Assembly (NCBI RefSeq): GCF_037201915.1
Contig: NZ_CP147505.1
Span: 1,612,001-1,676,000 of the forward strand
Direction: 5' to 3'
Length of the DNA: 64,000 nt
Origin: Haloplanus sp. CK5-1
GTDB lineage: Archaea > Halobacteriota > Halobacteria > Halobacteriales > Haloferacaceae
In this document: in pieces, positions 7,947-13,218 of the stretch
Numbering within the stretch: the stretch's first letter is position 1
Layout: each line of letters begins with the position of its first letter
Notes under the pieces: generated by a model
The model's input: only the letters and a program-made list of their open reading frames with translations
Databases searched by the model: none
Told to the model about the DNA's origin: nothing
Translations under genes and position numbers: made by a program

Positions 7947-10328
7947 TCACGTCCCGTCGGCGAACCGGTCGAGTCCGTGCGATAGCAGGTCGGGACTGAC
8001 CGCGCCGAACTCCTCGCGCTCCCACACCGGGAAGTGCTCCCTGACGCCGTCCCAGCGGTCGCGGGCGTAGCGGGCGTCGACGAGGACGCGGACGCCGCGT
8101 TCGTCGGGGCCGCGGATGACCCGCCCGACCGCCTGCCTGGCTTTCCTGACTGCTGGCACCGTCAGCGCCGTCTCGAATCCGCTCGCCCCGCCGCCCGGAC
8201 CGTCAGTGCCGAACGCCCGATCGTACGCGGTCACGACCGCCCGGGTTCGCGGGCGGGTCGTGTCGACGAGCGGAACCCCACACACCACCGCCGCGTGGAG
8301 GCGGTCGCCGCGGTAGTCGACCCCCTCGGTGAGCGTCCCCCGGAGACTGGTGACGAGTGTCTTCCCCGCCCCGGCGAAGAAGTCGGCCTTCAGCGCCTCG
8401 GTCGCTCCGTCGTCGCTGGACTCGTCGAGCAGGACCGGCGAGTCGAGGCGCTCGTCGAGGCGGCCGGCCATCCACTCCGCCTCCGCGTAGTTGGGCATCC
8501 CCACGAGGACGTTTCCGTCGGCCGCGGCCACCTCGGCGACGGCGTCGACGTACACCCGTCGCGTCTCGTTGTCCTCGCCCGGCGATCCGCGGTTCTCGTG
8601 GGTGAACGCCGGGGCGTCGACGGCGAAACTCGCTCGGTTCTCCTCGGGAAAGGAGAGGCCGTACGTGCGCTCGACGACCGGCCGGCCGTCGTCGGCGAGG
8701 GCGTCGAGTCCCGTCACCGTCCGGAACACGTCGAGAGGTTCGAGCGTCGCGGACATCAACACGCCACCGCCGAAGTCGTCGAGGCGGTCCGCGATGGCGT
8801 CGCCGGGGACGCAGTTGTGGATCGACAGGCGGGCGGTGTAGACCCGCCGCCACGAGTCGGCCGGCTCCGTCTCGTTCCAAGTTCGGGAGAGGTCGATCGA
8901 CCGGAAGTGGTGGGCGTGGTCCGCGCGGTACCACGTCCCCAGCACCCGACCGACCGTCGGTGCCGACCGGTCGCGGTCCGCCTCCTCGAGTTCGTTCAGG
9001 ACGCGGGCCACGACTGCACCCACCGCCTCGGCACGCACCCACACGTCGTCGCCGTACCGCCCGTCGGCCCACTCGGTGATCCCGTCGGGTGCCGGCGTCT
9101 CCGGATCCCGGAGCGGAATCTCGTCGTCGTCCAGCTCCTCGGTCGCCGTCCGCCACGCCGGTCGCTCACGGTCGAGGTGGGCGCGCACCCGCCGATCGAG
9201 TTCCTCGCGCAAGTCGCGGACGAACGCCCGCGTCGCTTCCAGTTCGTCGAGGCTCACGTCGGCCTCCTCGAGTTCGCCACGGACGAGGTCGGCGTCCAGC
9301 GTGTCGCCGTCGCCGCGCCGGTCCCCGGCCCCCGGTTGTGGGCGGTCACCGTCGGCCAAGTCGACCGCCTGGATCACCCGTGTGAGCTCCGACTCGGCGT
9401 CCCGGAGCGTCGCGTCGGCCACCCCGTCGCTCACCAAGTCCCGTACGCGCGGTTCGAGCATGTGTGCCTCGTCGCAGACGACGAACGTCGACTCGTCCAG
9501 CAACGCTCCGGTGAACGAGCCCGTCGTTCGGGGGTCGAAGGCGTGGTAGTAGTTGCCGATGACCACCTCGACGTGGGGTAGGAGCGCCCCGAGCATCGAG
9601 TGGGGACAGGTGCCGTGGCCGGCCGACAGGCCGACGAGGTCCTCCGTATCGATCAGGCCGCGATCCGCGACGTCGAAGGGGACGGCCTCGACCGGGTCGC
9701 CGTCCTCGGGCAAGTCCTCGAGGTACTGGGCGTAGAAGGGACAGAACTCCGTCCCCTCGTACTCGGCGGTGTCTGGCGGGTACGGTGTCGGTTCGCCGGC
9801 GGTCTCCAGATACTCGACGGTCGTTCCGGAGCCGGTGTCGAGGAGCCCGGTCTGGGTGCTGCGGGCGTCGTCGGCGAGCGCGGCCGCGGTCGTTGGTCCC
9901 TCGCTCCCCGTCAGATTGCGCGTCCGCTCGCGGAGCCCCTCACACCGGTCGTAGACGCTCGCGTCGTCGATCCGGCCGACGCGCTCGCGGCTGTACGGGC
10001 AGACGTCGGCCTTGCCGACGAGCGTCAGCGCCGACACCGGTCGCCAGTCCTCGGGCAGGTCGTCGTTGATGGTGCGGACGTCCGCCTCGAACTGCCGGAG
10101 TTGCTGTTTGACGCTCGTGAGGACGACCACCCGCTCGAAGGCCGACTCCGGGTCGCGCACCCGGTCGATGCCGGCGGTCAGCGCGAGCATCGTCTTCCCC
10201 GTGCCACAGGCCCCTTCGATCACCGCGAACCCGTCGCGTTCGGCCGTCTCGATGGCCGTCTCGATGCCGTCGGCCTGTTCGGGGTATGGCTCGTCGTGGC
10301 CGAAGATCGCCCGCCACGATTCTTCCAT
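7947..10328 (-). CDS. XPD/Rad3-related DNA helicase with Fe-S cluster cysteines
   Basis: A 793-residue superfamily 2 helicase of the Rad3/XPD/DinG type. Walker A is GACGTGKT (residues 39-46) and the DEAH box is CDEAHM (286-289). Between motifs I and II four cysteines (Cys110 in DVCPYS, Cys129, Cys196 in FCPFY, Cys241 in TCPHS) are placed as expected for the 4Fe-4S cluster of this family. The C-terminal helicase half has the SATL motif (LMSATLEPLDV), SLRGTLTEGVDY and the motif VI region QAVGRVIRG. It probably unwinds 5'-3' in nucleotide excision or recombinational repair. The start at 10328 is followed by MEESWRAIFGHDEPYPEQ, a typical Q-like N-terminus. Confidence 0.9.
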   Translation of the reverse strand: MEESWRAIFGHDEPYPEQADGIETAIETAERDGFAVIEGACGTGKTMLALTAGIDRVRDPESAFERVVVLTSVKQQLRQFEADVRTINDDLPEDWRPVSALTLVGKADVCPYSRERVGRIDDASVYDRCEGLRERTRNLTGSEGPTTAAALADDARSTQTGLLDTGSGTTVEYLETAGEPTPYPPDTAEYEGTEFCPFYAQYLEDLPEDGDPVEAVPFDVADRGLIDTEDLVGLSAGHGTCPHSMLGALLPHVEVVIGNYYHAFDPRTTGSFTGALLDESTFVVCDEAHMLEPRVRDLVSDGVADATLRDAESELTRVIQAVDLADGDRPQPGAGDRRGDGDTLDADLVRGELEEADVSLDELEATRAFVRDLREELDRRVRAHLDRERPAWRTATEELDDDEIPLRDPETPAPDGITEWADGRYGDDVWVRAEAVGAVVARVLNELEEADRDRSAPTVGRVLGTWYRADHAHHFRSIDLSRTWNETEPADSWRRVYTARLSIHNCVPGDAIADRLDDFGGGVLMSATLEPLDVFRTVTGLDALADDGRPVVERTYGLSFPEENRASFAVDAPAFTHENRGSPGEDNETRRVYVDAVAEVAAADGNVLVGMPNYAEAEWMAGRLDERLDSPVLLDESSDDGATEALKADFFAGAGKTLVTSLRGTLTEGVDYRGDRLHAAVVCGVPLVDTTRPRTRAVVTAYDRAFGTDGPGGGASGFETALTVPAVRKARQAVGRVIRGPDERGVRVLVDARYARDRWDGVREHFPVWEREEFGAVSPDLLSHGLDRFADGT

Positions 10329-10370
10329 CCTACCCGGAGGCTGGCGGCGTCCCCGGATAAAAAGCTCGGC

Positions 10371-10757
10371 TCAGAGCAGGCTCCGACCCAACACGATCAC
10401 CGCGAGGTTGTTCGCGAACACCGCCAGTCCGACGGCGACGAGGACGCCCAACCACGCCTCGATCAAGAGTGCGAAGTAGCGGTCGGCCGGCGGCGACGTG
10501 TGCCGGAGGCGGCCGGTCAGCAGCCGGAAACACCCGGTGACGAGGACGGCCGCGGCGAGGTGGACGACGACCACGACGTTGACGTCGCGGCCCAGCAGCC
10601 ACCGCATCAGCGGGTTACCCTCCGAGCCCAGCCCGACGACCCGCACCGCCGCGAGCGTCGTCAGGAGGTCGACGACGAGCAACAGGAACAGGGCGACGGC
10701 GATCCAGTCCCAGTACTCCTCGATCCGCGCCTCGTCGACCGCTCGGGAGTCAGTCAT
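10371..10757 (-). CDS. Membrane protein, DUF5658-like
   Basis: A 128-residue protein from ATG 10757 with four predicted membrane helices (about residues 18-40, 54-72, 80-100 and 105-125). The segment DLLTTLAAVRVVGLGSEGNP, with an acidic residue starting the helix and the G-x-E-x-NP turn, resembles DUF5658 membrane proteins. A longer in-frame extension upstream runs through the subtilase gene in another frame and is Arg/Pro/Thr-rich, so it was rejected. It lies 31 bp behind the subtilase-like gene and is probably the last gene of that operon. Function unknown. Confidence 0.7.
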   Translation of the reverse strand: MTDSRAVDEARIEEYWDWIAVALFLLLVVDLLTTLAAVRVVGLGSEGNPLMRWLLGRDVNVVVVVHLAAAVLVTGCFRLLTGRLRHTSPPADRYFALLIEAWLGVLVAVGLAVFANNLAVIVLGRSLL

Positions 10758-10788
10758 CGGGGGGACCGTCCCCGAGCGAGTGGCCGCC

Positions 10789-12492
10789 TCACGACTCCGC
10801 ACCCCGGTCGCCGGTGTCGTCCCGGTCCGGATCGGGGTCGGGCTCCGGCTCGGGGTTGCGCTCCCGGTCCGGGTCGGTGCCGCCGGTCGATCCGTCGTCG
10901 GCGGAGCCGTCCGTGCCGTCGTCCTCGGCCGACTCCGTGTCGGCGGGGCGACCGGCGTCGTCGCGTCCACCGGATCGGGTCGCGTTGCGGACGTCGTCCG
11001 TCCCGTCGGTTCGGGTCGTATTCCGGGCGTCGTCGCTCACCTGTTCCGAGGTCCGGGTCGACTCGACGACCGCTCCGGCGGCGTCGGTGCCGTCACGGGC
11101 CGTCGCCACCCCGTCCGACTGCGTCGCTCGCTCGCGGCTGTCGGCCGGGGACACGCGCTCGTCCCGGTCGGTCGCGGTGGCGTCCCGCGGGGCCGTCGGA
11201 TCGCGCGCGGCTTCGACGGCGGCGAGGGCGTCCAGCCGTCCGTCCTCGTCGGCGGCGGTGCGTTCGAGGATCGACTCGACCTCGTCGGGCGAGAGATCGC
11301 GCCCGCCGGACTTCATCAGCGCCGCCGTGCCGGCGACGTAGGGGGCGGCGGCGGACGTGCCGGCGAGGGTACCGTCGCTCGTCCTCGCGTCACCGGGCGC
11401 GAGGACGTCGACACCGCCGGTCTCGGCGCGCGAACTGTACGGGAGCGGCTCGCCGTCGGCGCTCGCACCGACGGCGACGACCCTGTCGCTCGTCGCCGGG
11501 GCGACCATGCTCCCCCGTGCGGTCGTATGTCCGAGTTCGTGCCGGGCGGCGAACACCTGCACCCGCCCGGGTCGCTGGACCGGGTCGTCGGCGTAGACGG
11601 CCACGTAGTACCGCCCGCGGGGAACGGCGACGTCGATGCGCTCGACGGTGAGCCCCGGGCCGGTCGCGTCGGCGGTGGACTTCGCGACGACGCGGTCGGG
11701 GGCGTCCGGCAGCCGCCGGTAGAGGTAGAGGTCGTAGTCGGCCCCGGAGCGCCAACGCAGGTGGAGGGTGACCCGACCCCGGAGTCGCTCGCCGGCCGCG
11801 AGCGGGTTCGCCGCCGTCCCGTCGGCGACGTCGACCCAGCCGTCGGCCGTGGGCGACCCCTCGCCGGCCCAGTGGCGGTTCGCGTAGTTACCGGCCGAGG
11901 TGACGAACACCACGCCGCGGTCGGTGGCGCGTGTCGCGGCGGCGGTGATCCGTCGTTCGTCGGCGGCGACGCTCGGGAAGTAGCTCCCCGAGTCGACGAT
12001 GACGTCGACACCCCGGTCGGTCAGCCAGTCGACGGCGGCGGCGTACTCCGCGGGCGTGGGGGTCCGCCCGACGCCGGCCAGATAGAGGTCCGACGACGGG
12101 GCAGTCTCGGCCACCACCTCGGCGACGGCGGTGTCGTGGGCGGTCGCTCCCGGTCGGTCACCGACCTGCCGGCGGGCGGCGACCCGGTCCGAGAGCGCAC
12201 CGGCGTCGAAGCCGCGACCGACGACACCCACGTCGACGTCGCGGCCGGTGAGACCCTCCGCGTGGACCGCGTCGGCACGAACCGTTCGGAGCGCGTCGGC
12301 GGTCGCACCGCCACTCGACGGATGCCGGTTCACCGTCGCGCCGGCGGCCGGGCCGGGGGCGGTCCCGGAACCGGCGTCCGCGACGCTCGCGTCGGGGGCG
12401 CGGTCGCCGCCGGGCGCCGGAGCCGGCTGGACCGTCGCGAGGACGACGAGGACGGCGAGAACGACGATCCGGATACGGAGGGCGTTCGACAT
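10789..12492 (-). CDS. Exported subtilisin-like (S8) protein with altered catalytic triad
   Basis: A 567-residue protein. Residues 1-25 form a signal peptide or anchor (RIRIVVLAVLVVLATVQPAPA). The subtilase fold spans about 75-415: His119 in ATAHDTAVAEVV, oxyanion Asn202 in VTSAGNYA, and Ser380 in GTSAAAPYVAG. The position of the catalytic Asp is Gly92 (VGVVGRGFD rather than the family's VxVIDxG), so the triad is incomplete unless the following Asp96 substitutes. The insert at 225-310 (LRWRSGADYDLYLYRRLP...GRYYVAVYA) resembles a P-domain-like beta sandwich. The last about 150 residues are Asp/Thr/Arg-rich and disordered. It starts 5 bp after the HTH regulator gene. Proteolytic activity is therefore uncertain. 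Confidence 0.8.
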   Translation of the reverse strand: MSNALRIRIVVLAVLVVLATVQPAPAPGGDRAPDASVADAGSGTAPGPAAGATVNRHPSSGGATADALRTVRADAVHAEGLTGRDVDVGVVGRGFDAGALSDRVAARRQVGDRPGATAHDTAVAEVVAETAPSSDLYLAGVGRTPTPAEYAAAVDWLTDRGVDVIVDSGSYFPSVAADERRITAAATRATDRGVVFVTSAGNYANRHWAGEGSPTADGWVDVADGTAANPLAAGERLRGRVTLHLRWRSGADYDLYLYRRLPDAPDRVVAKSTADATGPGLTVERIDVAVPRGRYYVAVYADDPVQRPGRVQVFAARHELGHTTARGSMVAPATSDRVVAVGASADGEPLPYSSRAETGGVDVLAPGDARTSDGTLAGTSAAAPYVAGTAALMKSGGRDLSPDEVESILERTAADEDGRLDALAAVEAARDPTAPRDATATDRDERVSPADSRERATQSDGVATARDGTDAAGAVVESTRTSEQVSDDARNTTRTDGTDDVRNATRSGGRDDAGRPADTESAEDDGTDGSADDGSTGGTDPDRERNPEPEPDPDPDRDDTGDRGAES

Positions 12493-12497
12493 GGCGT

Positions 12498-13103
12498 TCA
12501 GTCGGCGTAGCGATCCCAGGCAGCGAGGAGGGCGAGGACGAGGAGGCCGCCGGCGAGGAAGGCGACACCGGGCGGGACGAGACCCAGGAGGGGCGCCGAC
12601 GCCGACCCGACGGCGTCGCCGACGCGGGGCGTCGTCCCGGGGCCGCCGAGGTCGACGACGCCGGTTCCGAACGCACGCTGGACGCCGAACGCGGCGGCGG
12701 CGAGAACGACCACCGCGCCGGCCGTCCGGTCCAGCGAATCGAGGAACCGCTCCTTGTCGTCGTCGGAGCCGACACAGACGACCAGCGAGTCCTGGGTCGG
12801 TGCGTACACGTTCATCTCGCGCCCCTTCACCGAGTAACGCGTGTCGGCCACCTCGACGAGGTCGGCTTCTTCGAGGTTGCCGAGGTGGTGGCGGACGTTC
12901 TGGAGGGAGGTCGACACGGTCTCTGCGAGTTCCGATGCGGTCGCGGGGTGGTCTTCGAGGGCGGTCAGAATCGAGCGGGCGGTCTCGGACGTGATCGAGC
13001 CGATGAGCCGCTCCGCGTCGTCGTCCGTCAGGGACAGGACGCGAATCTCGCCGGACTCCTCCGGGGTCACGTCCGACTCCGACCGAGGTAACAACCCTGA
13101 CAT
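12498..13103 (-). CDS. Membrane-anchored winged-helix (ArsR-like) transcription regulator
   Basis: A 201-residue protein. Residues about 25-95 form a winged HTH (SETARSILTALEDHPATASEL and SLQNVRHHLGNLEEADLV) with a wing (DTRYSVKGREMNVYAP). The C-terminal half holds two hydrophobic helices (about 128-147 AVVVLAAAAFGVQRAF and 172-195 GLVPPGVAFLAGGLLVLALL), so the DNA-binding domain is tethered to the membrane facing the cytoplasm. It is the first gene of the operon with the subtilase-like and DUF5658-like genes, which suggests that it senses an envelope signal related to them; this is inference. Confidence 0.82.
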   Translation of the reverse strand: MSGLLPRSESDVTPEESGEIRVLSLTDDDAERLIGSITSETARSILTALEDHPATASELAETVSTSLQNVRHHLGNLEEADLVEVADTRYSVKGREMNVYAPTQDSLVVCVGSDDDKERFLDSLDRTAGAVVVLAAAAFGVQRAFGTGVVDLGGPGTTPRVGDAVGSASAPLLGLVPPGVAFLAGGLLVLALLAAWDRYAD

Positions 13104-13218
13104 CGGACGGAGCGTTACCTATCCAGCGTCAAAACCCTTCGCCACAATTCGATTCAGTAACTCATCTTATACGTCTCGCCGTCGACCGTCGGCGCCGTCT
13201 CGGCGCGTTGATCCGTAC

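Follow-up and report, generated by a model that had tools for sequence, protein, structure and literature searches.

A membrane-held winged-helix regulator and an exported subtilase-family protein as a candidate surface-to-gene signalling pair of haloarchaea

Two adjacent haloarchaeal genes, one encoding a membrane-held ArsR-type regulator and the other an exported protein of the subtilase (S8) family, look like an uncharacterised route by which surface signals reach the genes, and the two very probably form a functional pair. They were studied in the window, a stretch of 64,000 nucleotides from Haloplanus sp. CK5-1 that lies within a 3.24 Mb single-contig genome, the closest named relative found being Haloferacaceae archaeon XH8. 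To our knowledge, how archaea transfer surface signals to transcription is poorly understood. A search of the open-access literature, with subscription papers outside its scope, yielded no description of the regulator-subtilase pair, and our literature search found no papers on HVO_1552, the protein after which the tail of the regulator is named.

Results

Layout of the locus

The window carries three minus-strand genes at 12498-13103, 10789-12492 and 10371-10757, and an ORF check gave gaps of 5 and 31 bp between them, in agreement with the tight packing described in the initial annotation. Each of the three products has a Pfam match above the cut-off, namely HTH_20/HTH_5 (ArsR), Peptidase_S8 and DUF5658, respectively; all features given below with window coordinates lie on this same strand. 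A helicase gene (DEAD_2/Helicase_C_2, 7947-10328), also on the minus strand, is located 42 bp beyond the DUF5658-like gene, and the other flank of the trio is occupied by nnr (NAD(P)H-hydrate epimerase/dehydratase), moaC and hflX. The DUF5658 and DEAD_2 helicase genes remain together after loss of the subtilase, and the transcript of the trio may extend into the helicase (window 7947-10757).

Measured against the nearest relative, dN/dS was about 0.15 for the regulator and for the subtilase core, and 0.85 for the subtilase tail. These values indicate that the regulator and the subtilase are constrained proteins and not chance ORFs.

Alignment of the loci revealed a conserved promoter/operator-like element, TTACTGAATCGAATTGTGGCGAAG, upstream of the regulator at 13137-13160. 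It was alignable in 10 of 11 loci (that of the window and ten others), including two loci of the same genus that lack the subtilase. A single genome search returned no second good copy, and the idea of a regulon with a common upstream element was dropped for this reason. The element is compatible with autoregulation, of which it is no evidence. A transporter-like gene with 9-11 helices (MFS-like by eye) was observed directly upstream of the regulator in relatives (L101, L284, L103, L137 and L265), though not in the window.

Regulator and subtilase genes are paired across haloarchaea

Searches covered 293 genomes from the order and 170 from the family, and the neighbourhoods were then fetched. 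The regulator was found to adjoin the subtilase in 90 of the 91 compact subtilases of the family, the lone exception (L090) having no regulator within the fetched stretch. All 54 further loci of clade A, the clade to which L167 and L261 also belong, have the regulator first, on one strand and with a median gap of 21 bp, and all 35 loci of clade B, whose subtilase is about 38% identical, have the subtilase first, again on one strand and with a median gap of 64 bp. Several pairs have overlapping genes. Taking into account that seven genomes hold both a clade-A and a clade-B pair, the sample contains at least 83 haloarchaeal genomes with the pair, from six families. Conserved synteny in other haloarchaea, which had been put forward as the check on this locus, is therefore seen for these two genes in dozens of genomes.

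The surroundings of the clade-A pair depend on the lineage: nnr/moaC and the helicase in family f1, gatB- and topA-like genes in families f3-f5, and a MoxR/DUF58/transglutaminase-like cluster in genus g8 (the names gatB, topA and MoxR were read from the sequence and not from a family search). Since these housekeeping neighbours vary between lineages, co-inheritance of a fixed region fails to explain the pairing.

Among named organisms, the pair is present in Haloarcula hispanica (HAH_RS18460, S8; HAH_RS18465, regulator) and in H. marismortui (RR_RS03675/03670), where its annotation in both cases reads only 'S8 family serine peptidase' and 'helix-turn-helix domain-containing protein'. When named genomes were scanned with generic subtilase patterns, most of the proteins returned were bacterial S8 proteins, and only strain XH8 was informative.

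Two further genes recur near the clade-B pair. A gene for a BGTF (DUF7827) surface protein lies in the fetched stretch of 30 of 39 clade-B-type loci (35 of the 39 with the regulator), usually convergent with the pair, and was also noted at 4823-6517 of L294; its product is a possible target or sensed partner of the pair. Six of the 39 loci (L062, L064, L065, L067, L068 and L069) have a gene for a CPBP/Rce1-type intramembrane protease divergently upstream of the subtilase, and a further example was noticed at 1240-2091 of L294.

The regulator carries a predicted membrane hairpin with a conserved outer loop

The 201 aa regulator (12498-13103) is of the ArsR type, matching HTH_20 with 53.5 bits and HTH_5 with 32.1 bits, both above cut-off, and its best PDB fold matches in Foldseek are 2cwe/1uly, the PH1932 ArsR homologue. 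The AlphaFold2 model consists of a winged helix followed by helices 114-146 and 178-200. Hydropathy in close relatives places the membrane segments at residues about 123-141 (12681-12737) and about 178-197 (12513-12572), and such segments were found in every close relative that has the subtilase; the two C-terminal membrane helices read from the sequence at the outset are thereby supported. The tail resembles HVO_1552_C (PF24267), for which the window protein scores 23.3 bits against a gathering score of 27, and all 32 scanned clade-A regulators (alignment A2) match this family at E<=0.001. With a DNA-binding domain and at least one predicted membrane segment, the protein belongs among the transmembrane transcription regulators, and its predicted topology, a two-helix hairpin with an outer loop, is that seen in SREBP/S1P-type regulated intramembrane proteolysis.

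The loop between the membrane helices holds the motif P159-R160-V-G-D163 (12615-12629). In alignment A2, R160 is invariant, to the same degree as the DNA-binding residues, and P159 and D163 are conserved in at least 90% of the 32 clade-A sequences. Clade-A loops are short (median 32 residues) and carry Pro-Arg-x-x-Asp, whereas the loops of 19 hairpin paralogues unlinked to a subtilase are longer and variable (median 44, up to 104 residues). An Arg followed 2-3 positions later by an acidic residue is present in 55/55 clade-A loops, against 6/19 of the unlinked paralogues. Clade-B loops have another motif, PAS, in 28 of 36 cases, and PAS is found in 0/19 unlinked paralogues. Since these motifs are clade-specific and uncommon in unlinked paralogues, conservation of the outer loop tracks the presence of the subtilase. 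The tether itself does not: hairpin paralogues without a neighbouring subtilase imply that it has other uses, and we rejected the membrane tether as a general sign of subtilase linkage, only the loop motif being specific.

Unlinked HVO_1552-type hairpin regulators were recorded at L140, L155-L159, L166 and L141 (2069571-2070170 of the genome that contains the window). Several of them lie near genes which, named from sequence, encode a YfcE-like phosphoesterase, a cation-efflux-like transporter and an XPD/Rad3-like helicase.

The subtilase retains most of its active site

The 567 aa partner of the regulator (10789-12492) matches Peptidase_S8 (PF00082) with 66.6 bits (cut-off 21.8), and Foldseek aligns it with subtilisins at E about 5e-15. 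Its AlphaFold2 model shows an N-terminal hydrophobic helix at residues 3-20 (12433-12486; a signal peptide or anchor, a similar one being present in almost every relative), a subtilisin core modelled with confidence (about 62-432, mostly above pLDDT 90), an insertion rich in beta strands (residues 205-320, 11533-11880), which lies between Asn202 and Ser380 and interrupts the subtilisin match, and a disordered, acidic tail. An envelope protein of protease fold, as first proposed, is what these results describe. The usual subtilisin propeptide is larger than about 40 residues, and since only about 40 disordered residues separate signal and core, there is no space for one here.

Comparison of 91 homologues showed that the window protein lacks the full Asp/His/Ser triad. 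Gly92 (12217-12219) takes the place of the catalytic Asp, while His119, followed by Asp120 (HD and not HG, 12133-12138), the oxyanion-hole Asn202 (11887-11889) and the nucleophile Ser380 (11353-11355) are present; His119, Asn202 and Ser380 are identical in 91/91. Owing to its incomplete triad, we file the protein as an S8 homologue and not as a proven peptidase. The name 'pseudo-subtilase' given to it at first is apt as regards the lost Asp, and misleading as regards the rest of the active site; a complete pseudoenzyme was rejected on the invariance of His, Asn and Ser.

At the catalytic Asp position, 39 homologues have Asp, 50 Gly, one Val and one Ser, and on a tree built without the catalytic columns the state changes about seven times, Asp to Gly having arisen separately in f1, in genus g38 of f5 and in clade B. 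An Asp directly after the catalytic His is found in 40 of the 50 Asp-to-Gly members versus 0 of the 39 Asp-intact ones, mostly within one lineage. We rejected the idea that this Asp is strictly coupled to the loss of the catalytic one in independent lineages; strong as the association is, it comes mainly from one lineage and found no backing in independent pairs.

The best PDB sequence matches of the window protein are engineered subtilisins, 6ube being the first, and 3f49, titled anion-triggered, is the second fold match. D32G variants of subtilisin are activated by nitrite or azide, their D32A parent being SBT189 (3BGO; PMC7935941). Since an engineered subtilisin with the equivalent change is anion-activated, a slow or conditional enzyme would seem, for the Asp-to-Gly subtilases, at least as likely as a dead scaffold.

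Two further groups of proteins were also encountered. Exported subtilases of about 1,500 aa with a C-terminal membrane segment form a separate family without a regulator of this kind nearby (L097, L134 and L135). Proteins from bacterial MAGs (Acetothermia, Bipolaricaulota and Chloroflexi; L168-L185) match most of the subtilase core and insertion at 28-37% identity.

Hairpin and subtilase change together in family f1

The nnr-helicase locus of family f1 could be compared in 44 genomes. A regulator with membrane segments occurs together with the subtilase in 25 of them, 19 have neither, and none is mixed; the 19 loci without the subtilase encode a short soluble regulator of about 119-149 aa. Five changes fall on well supported branches of a tree of the nnr and helicase proteins, and hairpin and subtilase change together in all five independent pairs (with five pairs, a sign test can go no lower than the p = 0.0625 obtained). 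An exception in f1 is G391 (L261), where the hairpin is present and the subtilase is broken.

Two of the losses lie within the genus of the window; the loci concerned (L247 and L248) retain nnr, moaC, DUF5658, the helicase and the DNA-binding part of the regulator, only hairpin and subtilase being gone. Their homology to the window breaks off around regulator codon 111, to start again at the DUF5658 gene. These limits fit one deletion each; coupled loss could thus be explained by single deletions, and is by itself no proof of function.

Discussion

A proposed two-protein switch

We propose that 12498-13103 and 10789-12492 would encode a dedicated envelope-to-DNA switch of two proteins. The winged-helix domain would lie in the cytoplasm, held at the membrane by the two-helix hairpin, with a loop of about 30 residues outside. 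The co-transcribed subtilase would be exported and would recognise the conserved Pro-Arg-x-x-Asp stretch of this loop, and its binding or cutting, depending on surface conditions, would decide whether the tethered regulator acts. Once the loop is cut, an M50 intramembrane protease could release the DNA-binding part, as in SREBP/S1P/S2P; matches to M50 proteases were found at five places in the genome, amounting to four genes at most. In the lineage of the window, where Asp has become Gly and His/Asn/Ser are kept, the subtilase is expected to be an enzyme that works slowly or only under certain conditions, or else a binding sensor that descends from such an enzyme. Judged from sequence, the subtilase is rather likely to engage the outer loop, and it probably sets the activity of the regulator by binding or cutting there, in an SREBP/S1P-like layout. 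The contact, its outcome as cleavage or binding, the signal and its direction, and the target genes are all what we infer, on a predicted topology.

This switch best explains why the pairing is nearly universal (90/91) in two gene orders and differing neighbourhoods, why hairpin and subtilase are coupled in f1 (5/5 joint changes) and why loop conservation follows linkage to the subtilase; the invariant active-site His/Asn/Ser, the purifying selection and the M50 proteases of the genome also fit it. Against it stand the single deletions that would equally account for coupled loss, with a sign test that could reach only p = 0.0625, the hairpin paralogues that have no neighbouring subtilase, and the two irregular loci, L261 with its broken subtilase and L090 with no regulator in the fetched stretch. 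Most f1 subtilases, moreover, lack the catalytic Asp, contrary to routine proteolysis in that family.

As to what happens at the loop, we tentatively consider that the subtilase might be a site-1 protease which cuts after the conserved Arg, an M50 site-2 protease then freeing the regulator, with the Asp-to-Gly members being slow or cofactor-gated. His, Asn and Ser would be needless in a dead scaffold and yet are invariant even after loss of the Asp; several members of clade A and most of clade B have an intact triad, the clade-A loop Arg is invariant, the genome holds M50 proteases, and the short soluble regulators left where the subtilase has gone resemble a permanently released form. However, Asp-intact and Asp-lost lineages conserve the loop motif alike, a pattern as compatible with binding as with cutting. 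It is also possible, if somewhat doubtful, that the Asp-lost subtilase is a receptor of the pseudoprotease type, which would pass on a surface signal by holding the loop or letting it go, uncut. The Asp is replaced in 52/91 homologues (by Gly in 50) and in several lineages, and the Foldseek matches include Csp proteases and pseudoproteases (4i0w, 9pr8 and 9pr9), CspC and CspA having been described as signalling pseudoproteases (PMC6636752, PMC12880746); the invariance of Ser, His and Asn is contrary to a neutral loss of activity. Cutting and binding may both hold, in different lineages.

It is unlikely that the regulator controls its own operon only, with the subtilase as an independent envelope protease, the tether as a habit of the family and the loop motif serving hairpin packing. 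The element directly upstream of the regulator, which has no second good genomic copy, and the tethered paralogues that lack a subtilase would suit such local control, but the coupled presence of hairpin and subtilase, the clade-specific conservation of the loop and the maintenance of the pair in two gene orders speak against it.

A more specific form of the proposed switch is a long shot: the natural Asp-to-Gly subtilases would be conditionally active site-1 proteases, in which cleavage of the regulator is gated by small anions (chloride, nitrite or carboxylates) that fill the place of the lost Asp, or by the new Asp beside His. If true, such anion-gated cleavage would report the outside salt or anion status directly to transcription.

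The initial annotation had regarded all three genes as one module, of which the regulator-subtilase pair stands and the DUF5658-like membrane protein (128 aa, 10371-10757; 27.7 bits, cut-off 25.2) does not. A module of all three is highly improbable and was rejected on synteny: the 31 bp gap, the shared strand and a DUF5658 neighbour in genera g1, g10, g14, g17 and g96 speak for it, but the gene is missing from most pair-bearing loci (most clade-A loci and the clade-B loci examined) and stays in L247 and L248 after the loss of subtilase and hairpin, which makes it a neighbour and not a member.

Comparison with known systems

Human SREBP has the topology that is predicted for the regulator, and S1P, its first cutter, is likewise an S8 subtilase. 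The haloarchaeal pair shares with SREBP/S1P (MBTPS1, S8)/S2P (M50) an N-terminal DNA-binding domain, two membrane helices, an outer loop of about 30 residues, an exported S8 partner and the presence of M50 proteases. It differs in that the regulator is a winged helix and not a bHLH protein, is archaeal, is encoded in a gene pair and has no SCAP-like or sterol link. S1P is named as the first cutter of SREBP in PMC11231238; the haloarchaeal subtilase often lacks the catalytic Asp, and cleavage by it is only putative. With the pair, the SREBP/S1P layout would gain an independent counterpart.

The regulator resembles the transmembrane transcription regulators surveyed in PMC10269533, a text from which the word 'ArsR' is absent, in being a one-component protein with a DNA-binding domain and membrane segments; unlike these, it has a dedicated, nearly always adjacent, exported partner of protease fold. 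With the HVO_1552-type haloarchaeal regulators (PF24267) it shares winged helix and tail, whereas in the unlinked paralogues the loops are longer and variable and no subtilase gene lies alongside. Neither 'transcription factor' nor 'subtilisin' occurs in the text of a review on the membrane proteases of Haloferax volcanii (PMC9263693). Because the pair is widespread and occurs in a cultured strain, Haloarcula hispanica, it can be tested directly in archaea whether a membrane-bound regulator is subject to regulated proteolysis or to pseudoprotease sensing.

Csp proteases and pseudoproteases of Clostridia likewise combine an S8 fold with an extra domain and loss of active-site residues, a signalling role being only presumed for the haloarchaeal protein; Csp proteins act in spore germination, and their partner is another protease and not a transcription regulator. 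In the engineered D32G/D32A subtilisins (PDB 6ube, 3f49 and 3bgo; PMC7935941) the same position is replaced and His/Asn/Ser are kept. The haloarchaeal change to Gly is natural, and anion dependence belongs to the engineered forms. Haloarchaea thus offer a natural family in which the subtilase Asp has been replaced by Gly several times with the remaining active site fixed, the same change that engineers used to obtain a cofactor-dependent subtilisin.
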